NCBI GenBank assembly: GCA_017446055.1
Contig: JAFSRQ010000096.1
Coordinates: 1-64,000 of the forward strand
Source of the DNA: Synergistaceae bacterium
Lineage (GTDB): Bacteria; Synergistota; Synergistia; Synergistales; Aminobacteriaceae
Length of the DNA: 64,000 nt
Reading direction: 5' to 3'
Shown: positions 1,673 to 64,000 of the stretch, in pieces
Numbering within the stretch: the stretch's first letter is position 1
How the letters are laid out: every line of letters starts with the position of its first letter
Translations under genes and position numbers: made by a program
The notes under the pieces: model-generated
The model's input: only the letters and a program-made list of their open reading frames with translations
The model's database searches: none
What the model was told of the DNA's origin: nothing

Positions 1673-2100
1673 GCGTCGACAACTATATTTCGGGCGGCGC
1701 GGCTTTGTTCGGGGCGTTCCTCTCGTGGTACTTGGGCGATTTAGACGGCCTCATCAAAATCCTCTTTGCTTTTGCTGTCATTGACCAGATTACAGGGGTA
1801 ATGAAGGGCTTTGTCCTTAAGGTATGGAGCAGTGAGGTAGGGTTTCACGGAATAGCGAAGAAGGTCTACATGTTCATATTCGTTGGAATAGCAAATATCC
1901 TCGACAATGAAATGTTAGGACATTCAGAGCTACTAAAAGATATGGTATGTTTCTTCTATCTTGCGAATGAAGGGCTCAGCATTATTGAGAACGCTATTGA
2001 GCTTGGATTGCCCGTACCTGACGGCCTCAAGGAACGTTTCATGTCATGGCGCAACAAGCAGTTAGTGAGTAAGAACAAGCCAGAGCCAGACGACATTTGA
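1669..2100 (+). CDS. Phage holin, TcdE/phi-type holin 4 family
   Basis: A 143-residue protein starts at GTG 1669, overlapping the endolysin stop by 4 nt. It has about three hydrophobic stretches (roughly residues 5-22, 27-47, 60-77). The segment FAVIDQITGVMKGF, followed by S-S-x-x-G-x-x-G-I-x-K-K, is characteristic of the TcdE/UtxA/phage holin_4 family. It would form lesions in the inner membrane that let the GH108 endolysin reach the wall. The charged tail ends about residue 143. Confidence 0.9.
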   Translation: MSVDNYISGGAALFGAFLSWYLGDLDGLIKILFAFAVIDQITGVMKGFVLKVWSSEVGFHGIAKKVYMFIFVGIANILDNEMLGHSELLKDMVCFFYLANEGLSIIENAIELGLPVPDGLKERFMSWRNKQLVSKNKPEPDDI

Positions 2101-3263: not shown

Positions 3264-4211
3264 ATGACAGAGAAGACAGCAAACCAGATAGCGAACATGA
3301 AGAAGCAGACGATCGGCGTGGAAGTCGAAATGAATGGCATCACCCGCGAGAAAGCCGCCAGCATTGCCGCAGGTTTCTTCAAGACAGGACGCTACGAGTT
3401 CACGGCAAGGCGCAACGACTACGTAACATGGTCAGCATGGGACGCACAGGGCAGGGAATGGAAGTTCCAGCGCGATTGCAGTATTCACGGCAACGATGAC
3501 GAGAAGTGCGAACTCGTTACCCCAATCCTCCGCTACGAGGACATCGAGACACTGCAGGGGTTGCTCAGGGCGTTACGCAAAGCAGGAGCGCAGAGCAGTG
3601 CATCAAGGGGTTGCGGAGTTCACATCCACGTAGGCATCAAGAGTGAGGCCGGAAACCACAACGCGCAGACGCTGACGAACCTAGCGAACATCATGGCCGC
3701 GCACGAGGAGCAGATAGGCCGGGCAATCAAGATTGACGAGGGCAGGACAGAGCGGTATTGCAGGACGGTCAACCCCGATTTCCTAAGCAGGCTCAACGCC
3801 CAGAAGCCCGCCACAATGGAACAGCTTGCGGAAATCTGGTACAAGGCTCATCACACGGAGTACTGCAGAAACCATCACTACAACGAAAGCCGCTACCACA
3901 TGCTGAACCTCCACGCCACGTTCACGAAGGGTACAATAGAGTTCCGGCTGTTCCAGTTCGATGAGCCTCATGACGGCAAAAAGGGCGGTATACATTGCGG
4001 ACAGCTCAAGGCGTACATTCAGTTATGCCTCGCAATGAGCCAGCTCGCGAAGACCCTCACACACGCCAGCAACAAGCCTCAGCAGAGGGAAAACGAGAAG
4101 TACGCGTTCAGGTGCTGGATGCTGAGACTGGGTTTCATCGGCACGGAGTTCAAGACCGCAAGAACGTTGCTTTTGCGGAATGTCAGCGGAAATTGCGCGT
4201 GGAGGCACTAA
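3264..4211 (+). CDS. Amidoligase_2 family enzyme (prophage cargo)
   Basis: This 315-residue protein has the layout of the COOH-NH2 ligase (amidoligase) family, which is related to glutamine synthetase/gamma-glutamylcysteine ligase folds. Visible motifs are GVEVEM with E20 and E22, CELVTP with C82-E83, and HIH at H120 and H122, followed by an arginine-rich region (RTERYCR) and E-F-R-L-F, all expected for metal/ATP binding. The family forms amide bonds between carboxylates and amines; the substrate is unknown here. The C-terminus is basic and less conserved. Promoter copy B lies upstream and the start has AAGGAGC before it. The gene is followed without a gap by DpnD/PcfM-like and GGCT-like genes, so the three are probably co-expressed. 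Confidence 0.85.
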   Translation: MTEKTANQIANMKKQTIGVEVEMNGITREKAASIAAGFFKTGRYEFTARRNDYVTWSAWDAQGREWKFQRDCSIHGNDDEKCELVTPILRYEDIETLQGLLRALRKAGAQSSASRGCGVHIHVGIKSEAGNHNAQTLTNLANIMAAHEEQIGRAIKIDEGRTERYCRTVNPDFLSRLNAQKPATMEQLAEIWYKAHHTEYCRNHHYNESRYHMLNLHATFTKGTIEFRLFQFDEPHDGKKGGIHCGQLKAYIQLCLAMSQLAKTLTHASNKPQQRENEKYAFRCWMLRLGFIGTEFKTARTLLLRNVSGNCAWRH

Positions 4212-4480
4212 TGAGGGTATACAGAGTAGCAGTGACGGAGATCTACCGCAAGGTGGTCTCCGTCGAGGCCAATAATGAGCGTGAAGCCCACCAGCGGGCA
4301 TGGGATGCGTGGAACAACACCGAGATTATTCTCGACATGGACGATTTCGAGGGCGCGGAGATGTCAGTCCTTGATGACGGGCAGGAGACCAGCGGGGAAA
4401 AGCTCCCGGAGGACTCATACGTTGAAGGTTTTGACTACGGCTTCGGGAAGGGAAAGGGTACGGCGAAAAATGGCAGGTAA
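4211..4480 (+). CDS. DpnD/PcfM-like small protein
   Basis: An 89-residue protein whose ATG shares a base with the amidoligase stop (TAATG). The N-terminal 55 residues follow the DpnD/PcfM pattern: a Y-R-V-x-V-T-E strand, V-V-S-V-E-A-N-N-E-R-E-A, then a helix and the strand IILDMDDFEGAEM. Members are found on plasmids, phages and next to restriction genes, with no firm biochemical role. The C-terminus is glycine/lysine-rich. Its position inside the amidoligase operon suggests a helper or substrate role, which is inference. Confidence 0.7.
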   Translation: MRVYRVAVTEIYRKVVSVEANNEREAHQRAWDAWNNTEIILDMDDFEGAEMSVLDDGQETSGEKLPEDSYVEGFDYGFGKGKGTAKNGR

Positions 4481-6506: not shown

Positions 6507-7703
6507 ATGACAGACAGCGGATTAATCCAGCGCGGGGAGTCCAAGAAGTTCCTGCGGGACAAGCACGGGGGATTCTGGGAGGACAGGGGCGACATCGGCG
6601 GCACGAGAATCTACGCTCCTGCTCCAGAGTGGGCGGGCAACATCAACTTCTATCTCTTCGAGGGCCCGGACATTCTCATTGAGCCACAAGACAAACCGCT
6701 TTGTGATGTCCCGGAGTTGAAGCTAGGTTCGATTCCGCGTGATGACGGAAATTTTTTGCTGACTGACGATGAGAAGGACGAGCTTTTGAGGACTGACCCG
6801 GAAGCCGGGAAGTTCATACGCCCGTTTTTGGGAGGCCGTGAGTTCATCAACCGCACGAATCGCTGGTGCTTATGGCTGAAGGATGTTGAGCCTGCTGACG
6901 TGAGGAAATGCCCGCGGGTCTTGGAGAGGATAGAGAGGGTGCGCGAGTTCAGGAAGAAGAGTCCGAGAGCGGGAACGAAGAAACAGGCGGAGACCCCGAT
7001 GCTCTTCAGCGAGATACGAGACAGCAAGACGAATTACCTCGCAATCCCTCAGACTTCATAATCAACACGAAAATATATCCCCATGGCTTGGCTGACTCCT
7101 GACATCATAGCGGGCGATGCGTTGTTCGTTTGCGATGGTGTGAGCCTGTACCACTTCGGCGTAATGATGTCCTCTGTCCACATGGCGTGGGTACGGTGCA
7201 TAAGCGGCAGGCTTCGCATGGATTACAGCTACAGTAACACGCTGGACTACAACGCATTCCCCTGGCCCGTAATCATCCCGACCCCATGGATTCCCGGCGG
7301 CAACCCCTACCTCCGCAGGATTGAGGACACAGCGCAGGCAATCCTCGATGCACGGGCGAAATCCCCCCGCAGCACCCTCGCTGACCTCTACGATGAGCGC
7401 ACGATGCCCCCTGAGCTGAGGAAGGCTCACAACGAGAACGACGAGGCAGTCATGGCCGCATACGGATTTTCCCGGCACTACGAGGATGACAGGATGCACG
7501 ACGAGGACATAACGATTGCTCTCATGTACAGGTATCAGGAGCTGACCGGGTGCGATGAGCCGGGACGCAAGAACTACCCTAACCGGGCCTTGTGGGTGAG
7601 GTACTGCCCGGAGGACGCGGATGATGACGAGCTGGAGAATCTGGAGCTTTACCGGGAAATGTGGCCGGGGAATCCGGGGCTTGACGGCGTGGAGTGGGAG
7701 TGA
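6507..7703 (+). pseudogene. Remnant of a type IIL (MmeI-like) methyltransferase-restriction gene
   Basis: The frame carries only the target-recognition and C-terminal part of an MmeI-like type IIL enzyme. Visible family patterns are INFYLFEGPDI, KPLCDVPELKLGS, GGREFINRTNRWCLWLKD, TPMLFSEIRDSKTNYLAIP, then KYIPMAWLTPDIIAGD, YHFGVMMSSVHMAWVR and YSNTLDYNAFPWPV. No catalytic methylase motifs (F-x-G-x-G, NPPF/Y) or nuclease domain remain. An in-frame TAA at 7059-7061 splits it between QTS and STRKYIP, where homologues have a serine or similar. A fair ribosome site (GGGAGAG) precedes ATG 6507, so the upstream loss may be an old deletion. It lies directly behind the tRNA, probably a scar of earlier insertion. 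Confidence 0.8.
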
Positions 7704-12345: not shown

Positions 12346-12369
12346 ATTATAGCAGTTGCAGTGTACAAT
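12346..12369. promoter_or_regulatory. Back-to-back promoters for metH (minus) and the small peptide (plus)
   Basis: On the minus strand TGCTATAAT (extended -10; TATAAT at 12346-12351) lies about 30 bp before the metH start. On the plus strand TGTACAAT (-10 TACAAT at 12364-12369) precedes the small gene at 12441. The two -10 boxes are only 12 bp apart, so polymerases would compete. No strong -35 is seen for either. Confidence 0.5.
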
Positions 12370-12440
12370 ATTGCTTACGAGGATTCCGGGGTGCGGGCAG
12401 GGGTCGCTTCACAGGGTATTATGCCTTGGAGAATCAGGTG

Positions 12441-12587
12441 ATGAGTATGGGCAAGAGATCCAGAAAATCCCGGAGGAAGGCGGTGAAGAGGCTCGCTCGC
12501 AAGGTGGTACGCTTCTTCACTGCTTTCTACTGGCTGATGAGCTTCGTCCTGACTGCGTTACTTCTTTGGGATAGGCTGGCAGGTTAA
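12441..12587 (+). CDS. Small basic single-span membrane peptide, copy 1 (48 aa)
   Basis: The ATG at 12441 (or 12447) follows GGAG and AGGTG. The first 24 residues are rich in lysine and arginine (MSMGKRSRKSRRKAVKRL), then comes a hydrophobic helix FYWLMSFVLTALLLW and the end DRLAG. A related peptide is encoded at 61683-61814, ending LYWLIRLAFLLWDRFMG, which supports both as real genes. Promoter, untranslated leader and a 3' hairpin are similar in both loci. I do not recognise a known family; it is too short for normal gene callers. The layout resembles type I toxin or dual-function RNA loci, which is inference. Confidence 0.65.
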   Translation: MSMGKRSRKSRRKAVKRLARKVVRFFTAFYWLMSFVLTALLLWDRLAG

Positions 12588-12610
12588 GCCGGGAGCAACA
12601 ACTTCTTCAC

Positions 12611-12647
12611 GAATAGGGTTCAACTCCCCTCAACGTTGTCCCTATTC
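12611..12647 (+). ncRNA. 3' hairpin of small-peptide unit, copy 1, with C/U-rich loop
   Basis: GAATAGGG (12611-12618) pairs with CCCTATTC (12640-12647). An inner stem CAAC/GTTG (12621-12624, 12635-12638) closes a 10-base loop TCCCCTCAAC. No U-tract follows, so it is not a standard terminator. The homologous hairpin at 61845-61875 has different stem bases but the same two-stem shape. A conserved UUCUUCA precedes both. Confidence 0.55.
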
Positions 12648-12660
12648 TACCACACCAGAC

Positions 12661-17836: not shown

Positions 17837-18090
17837 TAACAAAACGCCCCCTCCAGTTTTGCACGGAAGAGGCGCGTTGTTCCCTGTGTGATTACCCTGC
17901 TGTACTCTCACGGTCTACGATTGCTGTTATCTCGTCGCTGTTGATGACTTCTTTCTCCTGCAAGACTCCGGCCACCTCATGAAGTATCTTCTCGTGTTCA
18001 CGTAGGATAGCTTCAGCCTTTTCTTGTGCCTCAATGACGAGCCGCCGTATTTCCCCGTCAATAACATCCGCAGTGCCTTCACCGATTTTG
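17835..18090 (-). pseudogene. Tandem duplicate of the ftsH 3' end plus its terminator
   Basis: This block repeats the sequence about 255 bp upstream on the plus-strand map (18091-18345), with scattered substitutions. It encodes the last 65 or so FtsH residues, ending VINSDEITAIVDRESTAG and the same stop, then the same terminator hairpin (17841-17878 compared with 18099-18134). There is no start region, so it is a dead copy sitting between ftsH and the He_PIG promoter. Identity is high but not perfect, so the duplication is not brand new. Confidence 0.85.
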
Positions 18091-18098
18091 CCCCTAAG

Positions 18099-18134
18099 AA
18101 AAACGCCCCTCCAGATTGACCAGGAAGAGGCGTT
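18099..18134 (-). terminator. Terminator of the ftsH operon
   Basis: On the minus strand AACGCCTCTTCC pairs with GGAGGGGCGTT around a short loop and is followed by a U-run (plus A at 18098-18102). A second, slightly diverged copy lies at 17841-17878 in the duplicated block. Confidence 0.75.
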
Positions 18135-18146
18135 ATTTCTGTGTGA

Positions 18147-20018
18147 TTACCCTGCTGTACTCTCGCGGTCTACGATTGCTTTTATCTCATCGCTGTTGAT
18201 GACTTCTTTCTCCTGCAAGACTCCGGCCACCTCATGAAGTATCTTCTCGTGTTCACGGAGGATAGCTTCAGCCTTCTCTTGTGCCTCAATGACGAGCCGC
18301 TTTATTTCCCCGTCAATAACATCCGCAGTGCCTTCACCTATGTCGTTGCGAACCTCAGAATTTCCCGACAGGTACATCATTGACGGCGACGCATAACGCA
18401 CCGGGCCGAGCTTGCCGGACATGCCGAACTCGGTTACCATTCTTCTGGCAGTCTCAGTAGCCCGCTCAAGGTCATTTGACGCTCCTGTTGACGCTTCCCC
18501 GAAGATGAGAAGTTCCGCCGCCCTTCCGCCCAGCATCACAGCCATTCTCGTGCGCAATTCCGCCTCAGTAACAAGATACTTGTCCTCGCTGGGCATGTTG
18601 AGTGTGTAGCCTAACGCGCCCTTTGTCGTGGGAATAATGCTGACCTTGTGCACCGGATCAGAGCCGGGCAGGTAGCACGACACTAATGCATGGCCGGACT
18701 CATGGTAGGCTACCTTCTTGCGGACTTCGGGAGTGAGCGGTGTCTTGCGCTGGAGTCCCGCAACAACGCGCTCTATTGCGAGGTCAAAATCATTCATCGA
18801 TACCTTGTCGGCCTTGCGTCTTGCGGCGAGGAGTGATGCTTCGTTGGCGATGTTGGCAAGGTCAGCCCCGGAAAATCCCGGCGTAACCTTGGCGATTGAT
18901 TTCAGGTCTATTGCAGGGTCAAGAGGGAGCTTTTTCGTGTGAATCTTGAGTATCTCCTCACGCCCTTCCTCTGTCGGCAAAACAACCTGTATCTGCCTGT
19001 CGAAACGTCCCGGCCTCATCAATGCCTGGTCGAGTATCTCCGGCCTGTTTGTCGCGCCCATGATGACGACTCCGTTGTTCTGCTCGAAACCGTCCATCTC
19101 AGCAAGCAGCTGGTTGAGCGTGGCTTCCTGCTCTGAGTTGCTGTTGAAGTTGCGCATCCGGGACTGGCCGATTGCGTCTATTTCGTCGACAAAGATTATG
19201 CACGGAGCTTTCTTCTTGGCTTGGTCGAAGAGGTCTCTCACTCTTGCCGCGCCGACTCCAACAAACATTTCCACGAAACTTGAGCCTGTGATGAAGAAGA
19301 ACGGCACTCCGGCTTCCCCCGCGCATGCCTTTGCGAGAAGTGTCTTGCCTGTACCGGGAGGGCCTACGAGGAGGACTCCCCTAGGCAGTTTTGCGCCGAA
19401 CTTGTCGAAGCGTTTCGGGTCTTTCAGGAAGTCGATTATCTCACGCAGCTCTACTTCCGCCTCACCAGCACCGCCTATGTCGCTGAACTTAACGCCGCTC
19501 ATCTCACCCTGTAACTCTTTGGCCTTGCTCCTCCCGAATGAGAATATCCCCCCGCCTATACCGCCGCCGTGCATGTTCCTGAAGATGAAGTACCAGATTA
19601 TGATTAGCGGCAGCATCGGAAGAATTATCCCCATCAGCAGATCTATAATGCCGTCCCTGTGAGCTATTCCCCCGAACTTTATATCAGCACTGGCCAGCCT
19701 CTCAATCAGAAACGGATCGGTGAGCTTGACCGCGCTCTTTATGCTGTCCTGTGATTTAGCGCGCTTGCTGGTGAGAATTTTCCCGTCAACTACGGGGCGT
19801 TTGTCTGGGCTGATGTTCTCCTTGAGGGTGTATATTATGCGTGTGTCGGATATGTCTGCGTTCTCGATGTTCCCTGCGTTAAGGTCGGCAAGAAACTCGC
19901 TGTAAGGGACTTCTGTTTTCCCCTCCGTGTAAGGCTTGTAGATGTATTCCGAGAAAAGCCAAGCGACTATCAACGCAACGAGAAAATACCACGCTGAAAA
20001 TTTCTGTCCTTTGTTCAT
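18147..20018 (-). CDS. ftsH: ATP-dependent zinc metalloprotease FtsH
   Basis: A 623-residue AAA+ membrane protease. Transmembrane segments lie at about 10-26 and 126-146 with a small periplasmic domain between. It has Walker A GPPGTGKT (219-226), Walker B IIFVDEID, the second region of homology ATNRPEILDQALMRPGRFD, and the zinc site HESGH (439-443) with a later zinc-binding aspartate (GASNDLERAT). It degrades misfolded membrane proteins and regulators such as LpxC in other diderms. It is last in a minus-strand operon from dNK to ftsH. Its tail is duplicated downstream. Confidence 0.97.
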   Translation of the reverse strand: MNKGQKFSAWYFLVALIVAWLFSEYIYKPYTEGKTEVPYSEFLADLNAGNIENADISDTRIIYTLKENISPDKRPVVDGKILTSKRAKSQDSIKSAVKLTDPFLIERLASADIKFGGIAHRDGIIDLLMGIILPMLPLIIIWYFIFRNMHGGGIGGGIFSFGRSKAKELQGEMSGVKFSDIGGAGEAEVELREIIDFLKDPKRFDKFGAKLPRGVLLVGPPGTGKTLLAKACAGEAGVPFFFITGSSFVEMFVGVGAARVRDLFDQAKKKAPCIIFVDEIDAIGQSRMRNFNSNSEQEATLNQLLAEMDGFEQNNGVVIMGATNRPEILDQALMRPGRFDRQIQVVLPTEEGREEILKIHTKKLPLDPAIDLKSIAKVTPGFSGADLANIANEASLLAARRKADKVSMNDFDLAIERVVAGLQRKTPLTPEVRKKVAYHESGHALVSCYLPGSDPVHKVSIIPTTKGALGYTLNMPSEDKYLVTEAELRTRMAVMLGGRAAELLIFGEASTGASNDLERATETARRMVTEFGMSGKLGPVRYASPSMMYLSGNSEVRNDIGEGTADVIDGEIKRLVIEAQEKAEAILREHEKILHEVAGVLQEKEVINSDEIKAIVDRESTAG

Positions 20019-61508: not shown

Positions 61509-61592
61509 GCGTACATGAGATTTATATTTTCGGTGAGGGCTACGTATCACATCAGGCAAGGAAGATACACATTATCCGCAAAATTCTCATCT

Positions 61593-61600
61593 GCTATAAT
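61593..61600 (+). promoter_or_regulatory. Extended -10 promoter of small-peptide unit, copy 2
   Basis: TGCTATAAT (TATAAT 61595-61600) with a weak -35 TTATCC 17 bp upstream (61572-61577). The sequence after it (ATTCTCACTGCGAAGAGG) aligns with that after the copy 1 promoter. Confidence 0.6.
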
Positions 61601-61682
61601 ATTCTCACTGCGAAGAGGCCTCGGGTGAGTCACACGCATCACCACTACGGGGAGCCTGCCGTGTAGTTAGGAAGTGAGCAAT

Positions 61683-61814
61683 ATGGCTTCTAAGACGAAA
61701 TCCCGTAAAAAGGAGAAAACGGCGAGATGGTTCTCCAGACCTGATATACTCGCCGCGACTCTTTACTGGTTGATCCGACTGGCCTTCCTGTTATGGGATA
61801 GGTTCATGGGTTGA
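61683..61814 (+). CDS. Small basic single-span membrane peptide, copy 2 (43 aa)
   Basis: ATG 61683 follows AGGAAGTGAG. The peptide begins MASKTKSRKKEKTARW, crosses the membrane with DILAATLYWLIRLAFLLW and ends DRFMG. It matches copy 1 (12441-12587) in charge pattern, Y-W-L and the L-L-W-D-R end although the DNA has diverged, which argues for selection on the peptide. The 80-nt leader contains GGTGA/TCACC and CTACGG/CCGTgTAG hairpins. It lies between pgm and a type ISP restriction gene. The family is unknown to me. Confidence 0.65.
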   Translation: MASKTKSRKKEKTARWFSRPDILAATLYWLIRLAFLLWDRFMG

Positions 61815-61844
61815 TCGGACCGGGAAATTAGTTCTTCATTCAAC

Positions 61845-61875
61845 GCGGGGCGGTTTACCTCTTCTCCGACCCCGC
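61845..61875 (+). ncRNA. 3' hairpin of small-peptide unit, copy 2, with C/U-rich loop
   Basis: GCGGGG (61845-61850) pairs with CCCCGC (61870-61875). CGG/CCG (61851-61853, 61866-61868) forms an inner stem with a one-base bulge, closing the loop TTTACCTCTTCT. The loop carries ACCTCTT, close to the anti-Shine-Dalgarno sequence. The bases after it are CAAAAATT, so it is not a clear terminator. Shape matches copy 1. Confidence 0.55.
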
Positions 61876-61886
61876 CAAAAATTATA

Positions 61887-64000
61887 TCACACCCCAAGCC
61901 CCGGCAATCCCCCCAAAATCTCAGCAGTCCTCACGCTCACAGTAACCACGCGCCTCAGCAAGTCCATCACATACCCTTCATTCCCGTGCTCGGCACCCCA
62001 GGCGTTGCAGTCATTCCTCAGACCCGAATCCTTGTCCGCGTCATCACGGTATCTCTCCACAACCCACGCAAGCGCGCTCCTCCCGTTCACCCGGTACTCC
62101 CACGCCGACTCAGGAATCCCAAGCACCGCAAGCCCCTCGCTGTACTGAATCCCAACAGGCCGCCCGCCCTTCTTGTCCGTCAGAATCTTCATCCTCTTCA
62201 CGCGCAGGTCAGACACATATCCCTCAAGCTCAACAGGCCACATCTCCGCAGTCTCATACCCCACGTGAAGATCCCCAAGCTCACGCCCGGCCTTCACGAA
62301 CTCCCGGAACGCCCCCGCATCCCTCACCATAGGGACACGCGCAAGAACCTTCTTTGTGTCGTTCCCGAAACGCAAAGCATACTCACGCGACGAAAGCACT
62401 CCGTAGACGTAGCAGAACACATCCTCCTTCGTTACACTGTCATCACTGAACTCACGCCGGAACGTCTCAAGGAAGCCGTCGCTTATTGCGTCCCTGCGCT
62501 GGCCGTCCTCATACCACCACAGCGGGAAGCATTGACATGTTTCTAGCAGATGCTGGTCTGGTAAGCAGTCAGTCATTAGCACAGAAAACTTCTTGATTGC
62601 TCCCAATCCCTGAACACATATCAGTCTGTTCTTGACACTAAGCGCAGGGAAAATGTGAGACATTTGGTGAACCCTCTGATTCGTCTCACGGCTGAAGTGC
62701 ATACACTCTTTCACATATGGACGGTAAAGCCCAACCCTCACGCTGTCTTCCGTCAAGGCTTCAGGCTTCAGTCTCGTGATGTTCCTGCAAAGCTCCTCAC
62801 GCGAAAAGTTGTAGCACCATGCATCCTGTCCTGTCTTCACTCCCATCGAATACCTGTCAGCAAACATCGCCAGCCTCTCATTCTTCTTGTCGCCCAGTGC
62901 CATGAACGTGTAGTAGTCATTGCTCCTCTGGTTCACCCAGTCCCCCCAAAGGTTGCAGGTGAAACACCTCATCTTCCCGGCCTCAAGCATCCTTCCGAAA
63001 TCCCCGCAGGCCTCAAGCTCCCTCAGCTTCTCCTCACGCGTCATCCCGTCAGCACTCTCATAGTAGTACCCGCAGAATGGCTGCCTGAACCTCCGCTCGT
63101 CCTTCACGAAGAGAGTTATCGCTATCGGACACTGGCTTCCCTCGCCGAAAACTTTTCCCCCTTCCTTGCGCCAGTTGCCGCCCCTCTGGTTGCCTCTCAG
63201 GTTGAAGATGTAGACGCACGAGAACTCCCCGGCTATGCATTTCCTCATTCCGTCCGCGCTGTTGCTGTCGATGAAGGAAGCGTTTGTTACGTAGCATATT
63301 ATGCCCTTGTCGCCCATCCTGTCAGATGCCCAGCGTATAGCCCGTATGTAGCTGTCATAGAGCGAGCCTTTGTGATTGGCCTTGCTATTCTTAACATATG
63401 TGTCCTTGATTTTGCCGTCAACAGCCTCGTAGTCCTTATTCTTTCCGCCGACGCTGTAGGGAGGGTTGCCGATTATCACGGTGATTTCTGTGGTCTCTTC
63501 CTCGTAGGCTCTCTTTCCGTTCTCGTAGAAGAGGGGCTTCTTGTCCTTGTCCGCGAGGGTGAATGTTGCCTCAGTGTTGAGCCTGAAAGTGTCGGCCATG
63601 ACCATGCCGGGGAAGGGGATGTAAGTTATTCCGCCGTTGACCTGGTTGAACGCGGCCTCGATGTTTACGGCTGAGATGTAGTACGCGAGGAGCAGCATTT
63701 CGTTGGCGTGTATCTCGCGCTGGTACTTTATGCCGAGCCTTGACGGTGGGATTATGCCGGAGTCTATGAGCCTTGCGGTGAATGTGCCTGTTCCGCTGAA
63801 GGGGTCGAGGATGTGAACGTTGTCCGCGCTGAGTCCTTCCGTGATTCCGAGATGATGACGGAGAGCCCAGTCCGCGCTGTTGATGATGAAGTCAACGATT
63901 TCTTCGGGAGTGTAGACGATGCCGAGGCTGTCTGCTGTTTCGGGGAAAGCCTGCCTGAAGAAGTTGTTGTAGATGTCGCGGAGGAGACGCTGTTTTTCCG
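61887..64000 (-). CDS. Type ISP restriction-modification enzyme, N-terminal part outside window
   Basis: The last 704 or so residues of a larger protein are present; the start lies beyond 64000. Gamma-class N6-adenine methyltransferase motifs are in order: DPFSGTGTFTARL (motif I), then IIGNPPYSVGGKN (motif IV, NPPY). A target-recognition region with many aromatic residues (CFTCNLWGDWV, Y-S-M-G-V-K-T-G-Q-D-A-W) follows, and a C-terminal Type_ISP coupler-like block (YVYGVLSSREYALRF, LARVPMV, GIQYSEGLAVLGIP). Type ISP enzymes carry nuclease, helicase-like, methylase and recognition domains in one chain; the nuclease and helicase parts would be upstream. The gene appears intact in this window. 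Confidence 0.88.
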   Translation of the reverse strand, partial: EKQRLLRDIYNNFFRQAFPETADSLGIVYTPEEIVDFIINSADWALRHHLGITEGLSADNVHILDPFSGTGTFTARLIDSGIIPPSRLGIKYQREIHANEMLLLAYYISAVNIEAAFNQVNGGITYIPFPGMVMADTFRLNTEATFTLADKDKKPLFYENGKRAYEEETTEITVIIGNPPYSVGGKNKDYEAVDGKIKDTYVKNSKANHKGSLYDSYIRAIRWASDRMGDKGIICYVTNASFIDSNSADGMRKCIAGEFSCVYIFNLRGNQRGGNWRKEGGKVFGEGSQCPIAITLFVKDERRFRQPFCGYYYESADGMTREEKLRELEACGDFGRMLEAGKMRCFTCNLWGDWVNQRSNDYYTFMALGDKKNERLAMFADRYSMGVKTGQDAWCYNFSREELCRNITRLKPEALTEDSVRVGLYRPYVKECMHFSRETNQRVHQMSHIFPALSVKNRLICVQGLGAIKKFSVLMTDCLPDQHLLETCQCFPLWWYEDGQRRDAISDGFLETFRREFSDDSVTKEDVFCYVYGVLSSREYALRFGNDTKKVLARVPMVRDAGAFREFVKAGRELGDLHVGYETAEMWPVELEGYVSDLRVKRMKILTDKKGGRPVGIQYSEGLAVLGIPESAWEYRVNGRSALAWVVERYRDDADKDSGLRNDCNAWGAEHGNEGYVMDLLRRVVTVSVRTAEILGGLPGLGV

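Follow-up and report, generated by a model that had tools for sequence, protein, structure and literature searches.

A multi-copy small-peptide unit of Synergistaceae with a folded-back mRNA and a predicted 3'-overlapping antisense RNA, probably a type I toxin–antitoxin-like module

Results

The unit between pgm and a type ISP gene

Positions 61592–61889 of the window (the whole 64,000-nt stretch of Synergistaceae DNA that was analysed) hold one copy of a multi-copy family, located between pgm and a type ISP restriction-modification gene with the Pfam domains Type_ISP_C, Mrr_cat_2, ISP_coupler and ResIII (Table 1). The original prediction of a repeated small-peptide/structured-RNA unit was right, and the promoter, leader, 43-residue peptide and 3' hairpin described there were all recovered from sequence and fold, far above chance. 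What it missed were an opposing promoter beyond the hairpin and an antisense terminator inside the ORF. The TGA stop of the ISP gene overlaps the antisense extended −10. In this copy, one position in P2 and one in PK are unpaired, and the antisense U-tract is short (TTTT, interrupted). A consensus scan found no −35 element.

A second unit, copy 1 upstream of metH, had been taken to follow the same plan. It was identified as a diverged relative of the family (profile E 1.4e-12) with a promoter-like sequence, an ORF and a hairpin, but its leader is weak against the covariance model (12.4 bits) and its 5'–3' pairing is short and poorly matched.

Table 1 Features of the two units and of the adjoining gene in the window
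Feature	Position	Strand	Basis
Extended −10 promoter of the peptide mRNA, TGCTATAAT	61592–61600	+	sequence
Peptide mRNA leader	starts ~61607	+	predicted
5' element GAAGAGG, partner of the 3' hairpin loop (long-distance 5'–3' lock)	61612–61618	+	cognate-versus-swapped test
Leader pseudoknot, whole	61619–61663	+	covariation
Pseudoknot P1	61619–61623/61648–61652	+	
Pseudoknot P2	61624–61629/61638–61643	+	
Pseudoknot PK	61633–61637/61659–61663	+	
Shine-Dalgarno AGGAAG, 8 nt before ATG	61669–61674	+	sequence; alignment-conserved position
43-residue ORF MASKTKSRKKEKTARWFSRPDILAATLYWLIRLAFLLWDRFMG, basic and hydrophobic, putative membrane toxin	61683–61814	+	
Predicted antisense terminator within the ORF, CGGCGAG..CTCGCCG then TTTTCTCCTTTTT	61716–61755	−	hairpin statistics, compensatory pairs
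3' hairpin, −17.0 kcal/mol, loop with CCTCTTC at 61858–61864	61845–61875	+	fold; conserved
Convergent extended −10 of the predicted antisense RNA, TGATATAAT	61881–61889	−	motif count
Predicted antisense RNA (putative antitoxin), ~160 nt	61715–61875	−	ends inferred from −10 and terminator
Type ISP restriction-modification gene, 3' part (1484 aa, extends beyond the window)	61887–64000	−	Pfam
Copy 1, upstream of metH	12364–12652	+	
Copy 1 −10-like TACAAT	12364–12369	+	
Copy 1 ORF	from 12441/12447 to 12587	+	
Copy 1 hairpin	12615–12643	+	
Copy 1 reverse −10, ATTCTACCA	12644–12652	−	

Elsewhere in the window, a minus-strand ORF has a tandem direct repeat at its end (17884–18341), made of two 203-nt copies that are 96% identical and lie 255 nt apart.

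Distribution of the family

A search with a 28-member alignment placed relatives in 39 of the 43 genomes of the genus, at about 155 places with 1–9 per genome, many of them in tandem arrays at a spacing of about 330–365 nt. Order-wide, the family was found in 49 of 180 genomes and 7 of 58 genera, and phylum-wide, using a second alignment, in 45 of 185 genomes; all matches listed in the order and phylum searches fell within one family. The named relatives are uncultured assemblies, Synergistaceae/Fretibacterium MAGs of which several come from ruminant guts. The window leader scored 47.6 bits (E 3.5e-9) against the leader covariance model; since the window copy was among the 42 training rows of that model, it is the matches in other genera that were counted as independent evidence.

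Two IMG/VR viral contigs carry units, one between the genes for portal and minor head protein (L148/L250, 5001–5132), the other apparently in tandem near small type II toxin–antitoxin-like ORFs (L251, 1611–1733), and this placement suggests a possible route of transfer. In plasmids and GenBank phages the consensus peptide had no match.

The ORFs of L109 (~3994–4231, minus strand) and L124 run into what is apparently the same foreign sequence (TTGACATACTCCCCTCGCTTAAAAGCGGG in L109), which enters at the same point of the peptide and resembles an IS200/IS605-type end. A remnant unit was seen at 1975–2044 (minus strand, leader) of locus L270, with leader, 3' hairpin and reverse −10 kept and most of the ORF deleted. 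L080 (G006:C30) is apparently chimeric: its 5' element GAAGAGG faces the loop CTCCCTC, and only four bases pair.

The peptide

Over the last 20 codons (262 pairs), dN/dS was about 0.18 with differences mostly at third positions, compared with 1.2–2.0 in the shifted frames, from far fewer usable pairs than the coding frame. Judged by this comparison, the peptide is coding and under purifying selection. A Lys/Arg-rich N-terminus is followed by a hydrophobic stretch, whose last residues are LLWDRFxG in the class of the window copy and WVVKTILLLIDWFTR in another class. At 43 aa, with a basic N-terminus and a hydrophobic C-terminus, it shows the type I toxin trait of a small hydrophobic peptide of <60 aa. 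Matches were absent from Pfam, NCBIfam, PHROGs and PADLOC, and a known peptide family was rejected on these grounds.

Leader pseudoknot and fold-back of the mRNA

The forward promoter matches TGnTATAAT exactly in 81 of 102 units, and the hexamer is TATAAT in 89 of 93. For the leader pseudoknot, 86.9% of cells were paired across 42 sequences, and none of 500 shuffles was as good; the covariation was also seen on 85 sequences. None of the units matched Rfam 15, and a riboswitch or another known RNA family was rejected accordingly.

RNAalifold returned no structure for automatically aligned 3' regions because the 3' stems vary too much, and 5'–3' pairing was therefore tested by partner swapping. 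The loop sequence, previously quoted as ACCUCUU and matched to the anti-Shine-Dalgarno core, is present, but the partner supported by the comparison is another one: in the window copy the loop CCTCTTC complements the 5' element of the mRNA. Cognate partners exceeded swapped ones with z 9.4–9.6 (0 of 10,000), in a statistic that ignores relatedness between copies. The anti-Shine-Dalgarno role was rejected, as the loop covaries with the mRNA 5' end (z 9.6) whereas the Shine-Dalgarno window gave z −1.5; the other leader windows tried were about zero or below. About ten matched sequence classes of 5' element and loop were distinguished, among them GAGGGAG/CTCCCTC, GAGGAAG/CTTCCTC, GAAGAGG/CCTCTTC, GAGGGG/CCCCTC, GAGGAGG/CCTCCTC, GAGAGAG/CTCTCTC, GACGGAA/TTCCGTC, GAAGGGG/CCCCTTC and GGAGAGG/CCTCTCC. 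With so many distinct matched classes, pairing by inheritance alone appears unlikely from the sequences. A few units, such as copy 1 and L080, match poorly.

Predicted antisense RNA

Past the 3' hairpin, an extended −10 of the opposite strand, ATTnTAnCA, occurs in 97 of 102 units (1.6 expected). Inside the ORF, 88% of units contain a strong hairpin with compensatory changes in its arms; among shuffled sequences, a strong hairpin occurs in 6%. The sense-side 5' flank of this hairpin is A-rich (at least 5 A of 8) in 84% of units, and on the opposite strand the element reads as a hairpin followed by a U-tract. It is the Lys codons before the hairpin arm that supply the U-tract, so that one stretch encodes the basic tail and ends the predicted antisense RNA. 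For the window copy, we infer an antisense RNA of ~160 nt, running from ~61875 to 61715. The forward −10 is closer to consensus than the reverse −10, whereas type I antitoxins are generally produced in excess.

A second class with an unrelated peptide

The leader covariance model R1, built from own-genus units only, also matched genomes of another family of Synergistales (f4). A peptide encoded there, e.g. MARKKSLQMALWIALLALLLGAATRFLEALVDLIRIVL, is unrelated to that of the window family (profile comparison, probability 0.6%). Several f4 loci have matching 5' elements and loops (GGAGAGGC/GCCTCTCC, GAAGAGGC/GCCTCTTC, GAGCAGG/CCTGCTC), and the same loci carry an ORF-embedded hairpin with an A-run as well as a reverse −10. 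This second class was found in 11 genomes of 6 genera, one genus belonging to the window's family; not every locus has all elements, and some are without the reverse −10 pattern. At L266–L269 and L274–L287 (family f4 and genome G109) the unrelated hydrophobic peptide falls into at least two sub-classes, and the 3' regions hold an extra large hairpin (GGCTGAGTTAG..CTCAGTCGGGC). As far as sequence comparison can tell, a second Synergistales family has the same RNA layout around a peptide of unrelated sequence.

Discussion

A type I toxin–antitoxin-like module, its mRNA folded back and its predicted antisense RNA overlapping the 3' end, is the probable identity of the unit, and we hold this reading with good confidence. 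Known type I systems share multi-copy chromosomal loci, a small cationic and hydrophobic peptide and a long-distance 5'–3' lock (PMC6733600, PMC8309996). The comparison of copies shows the sequence elements themselves, the pairings through covariation and selection on the peptide. In favour of the type I reading are the number of places, the reverse −10, the terminator in the ORF, the 5'–3' pairing, the pseudoknot, the dN/dS, the layout shared with an unrelated peptide and the phage-contig unit; against it are the reverse −10, farther from consensus than the forward one, the lack of a −35 in the consensus scan, the short U-tract of the window copy and the poor 5'–3' match in a few units.

On this model, both promoters would fire. 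The toxin mRNA would start at ~61607 and extend through the 3' hairpin, and in the full-length transcript the 5' GAAGAGG would pair with the hairpin loop while the pseudoknot lies upstream of the ribosome site, so that the locked mRNA would be poorly translated or inert. From the convergent promoter beyond the hairpin, a cis-antisense RNA would be made that spans the 3' hairpin and the last part of the ORF and stops at the ORF-embedded terminator; its 5' hairpin loop may kiss the 3' loop of the mRNA, and the resulting duplex would lead to mRNA decay and silencing. A folded-back mRNA opposed by an antisense RNA is the common bacterial means of silencing a self-poisoning peptide. If the antisense supply drops or the mRNA is trimmed at its 3' end, the peptide would be made, and with its basic tail and one hydrophobic helix it may act on the membrane as a toxin.

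Alternatively, the product could be a non-toxic small membrane protein; the pseudoknot would then sense a ligand or regulate the ribosome, and the antisense RNA would fine-tune a regulatory or transport peptide. This would agree with the compact covarying pseudoknot right before the ribosome site, with the strong purifying selection that the peptide shows and with units kept at orthologous sites, but 1–9 divergent copies per genome in tandem arrays, an unrelated peptide in the same RNA layout, and disrupted copies and patchy sites suit an addictive module better, and we regard a non-toxic role as unlikely.

Another possibility, compatible with the type I module, is that the unit guards the gene converging on it. 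In the window, the stretch from the ISP stop to the predicted antitoxin showed no terminator, so read-through from the restriction gene could feed the antitoxin, and loss of the gene would free the toxin. Of 71 downstream genes, 49 are convergent with the unit, and 45 of these have their stop −37 to +22 nt from the antisense −10. Two different restriction families are involved: a unit abuts the 3' end at 12 of the 20 type ISP matches in the genus, and at MmeI-type genes in about 8 cases. The ISP gene and the unit also stay together, following pgm in the window and HPPK in most relatives. On the other hand, the downstream gene is co-directional in 22 of 71, the MmeI cases are only ~8 of ~80 C-termini, the loci are partly orthologous and so not independent, and the antitoxin would have its own promoter. 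The link to restriction that had been drawn from the position of the unit stands for some loci, whereas consistent linkage to a guarded restriction gene was not found; a restriction-guard role is not general, because most units adjoin metabolic genes. Guarding of the neighbour is accordingly rather improbable as an account of the unit.

A genomic-island border, also proposed for this site, is not needed. A look for spacers lacking the unit between the same flanking genes, proposed as the refuting condition, gave a mixed picture. At 29 other pgm loci, no unit was present within the flank examined (up to 1.5 kb), but pgm is followed by different genes at these loci and the pair of flanking genes is therefore not conserved; in relatives where the ISP gene follows HPPK, units are present. 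At 7017–7505 the window also holds part of an MmeI-type restriction gene that contains an in-frame TAA and is possibly decayed.

A MITE-like mobile repeat, in which TGnTATAAT and ATTnTAnCA would be terminal inverted repeats and promoters and antisense RNA incidental, would account for the multiple copies, the absence from the 29 other pgm spacers and the TG..CA ends resembling inverted repeats, but is very improbable: terminal inverted repeats were rejected as the end hexamers differ in 74 of 93 units and follow −10 rules, the peptide is under strong purifying selection, and strongly diverged units still keep the pairing.

A wider idea, to be taken as speculative, is that the RNA layout has been kept across Synergistales families while the peptide was swapped, and that placement at the 3' ends of convergent genes, restriction genes included, lets read-through supply the antitoxin and guard these neighbours.

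Relation to known systems

The type I-like unit resembles aapA/IsoA of Helicobacter (Epsilonproteobacteria) in having several chromosomal copies, a small cationic one-helix membrane peptide, a cis-antisense RNA (predicted here) and long-distance pairing of the mRNA ends (PMC6733600, PMC8309996). In contrast to aapA/IsoA, the partner of the Synergistaceae 3' loop is the extreme 5' end, with no detectable pairing to the Shine-Dalgarno sequence, the leader contains a pseudoknot, and the predicted antisense RNA runs from the 3' hairpin into the ORF, where it ends. The phylum is another one, and the peptide is unrelated as judged by the family libraries, as is the RNA as judged by Rfam 15.

In hok/sok, Sok pairs near the 5' leader, whereas the antisense RNA predicted here covers the 3' end, and the Hok peptide is unrelated. 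Common to both are a folded-back mRNA whose 3' end holds the 5' region, metastable 5' structures and an antisense RNA, predicted here (PMC6733600). The Synergistaceae unit would follow an aapA/IsoA- or hok/sok-like logic but is not a member of either family.

The antisense RNAs of BsrG/SR4 and TxpA/RatA from Bacillus overlap an mRNA for a small hydrophobic toxin at its 3' end. With these and with YonT/SR6, the unit shares the (here predicted) 3' overlap, but the peptides are unrelated; to our knowledge, a 5'–3' lock with a pseudoknot leader is not known from the three systems. For YonT/SR6 of Bacillus, the 3' overlap with a small hydrophobic toxin mRNA is described in PMC5848175.

Type I systems have been reported only from Proteobacteria, Firmicutes, Tenericutes and, in 2025, Cyanobacteria (PMC12390103). 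The cyanobacterial example, msoT1/msoA1 of Microcystis, is a predicted module in a phylum thought to be without them, from a single species and partly tested in E. coli (PMC12390103); the likeness to the present unit lies in the prediction for an unexpected phylum, and no kinship is claimed. For Synergistetes/Synergistaceae, no type I system was found described in the literature searched. Tiny toxins make such systems hard to detect. If a Synergistota family can be recognised by its RNA architecture, the known range of type I systems would widen, and searches could target the layout of the RNA rather than the peptide; the two unrelated peptides sharing one layout would also let one ask whether type I control RNAs and toxins evolve separably.
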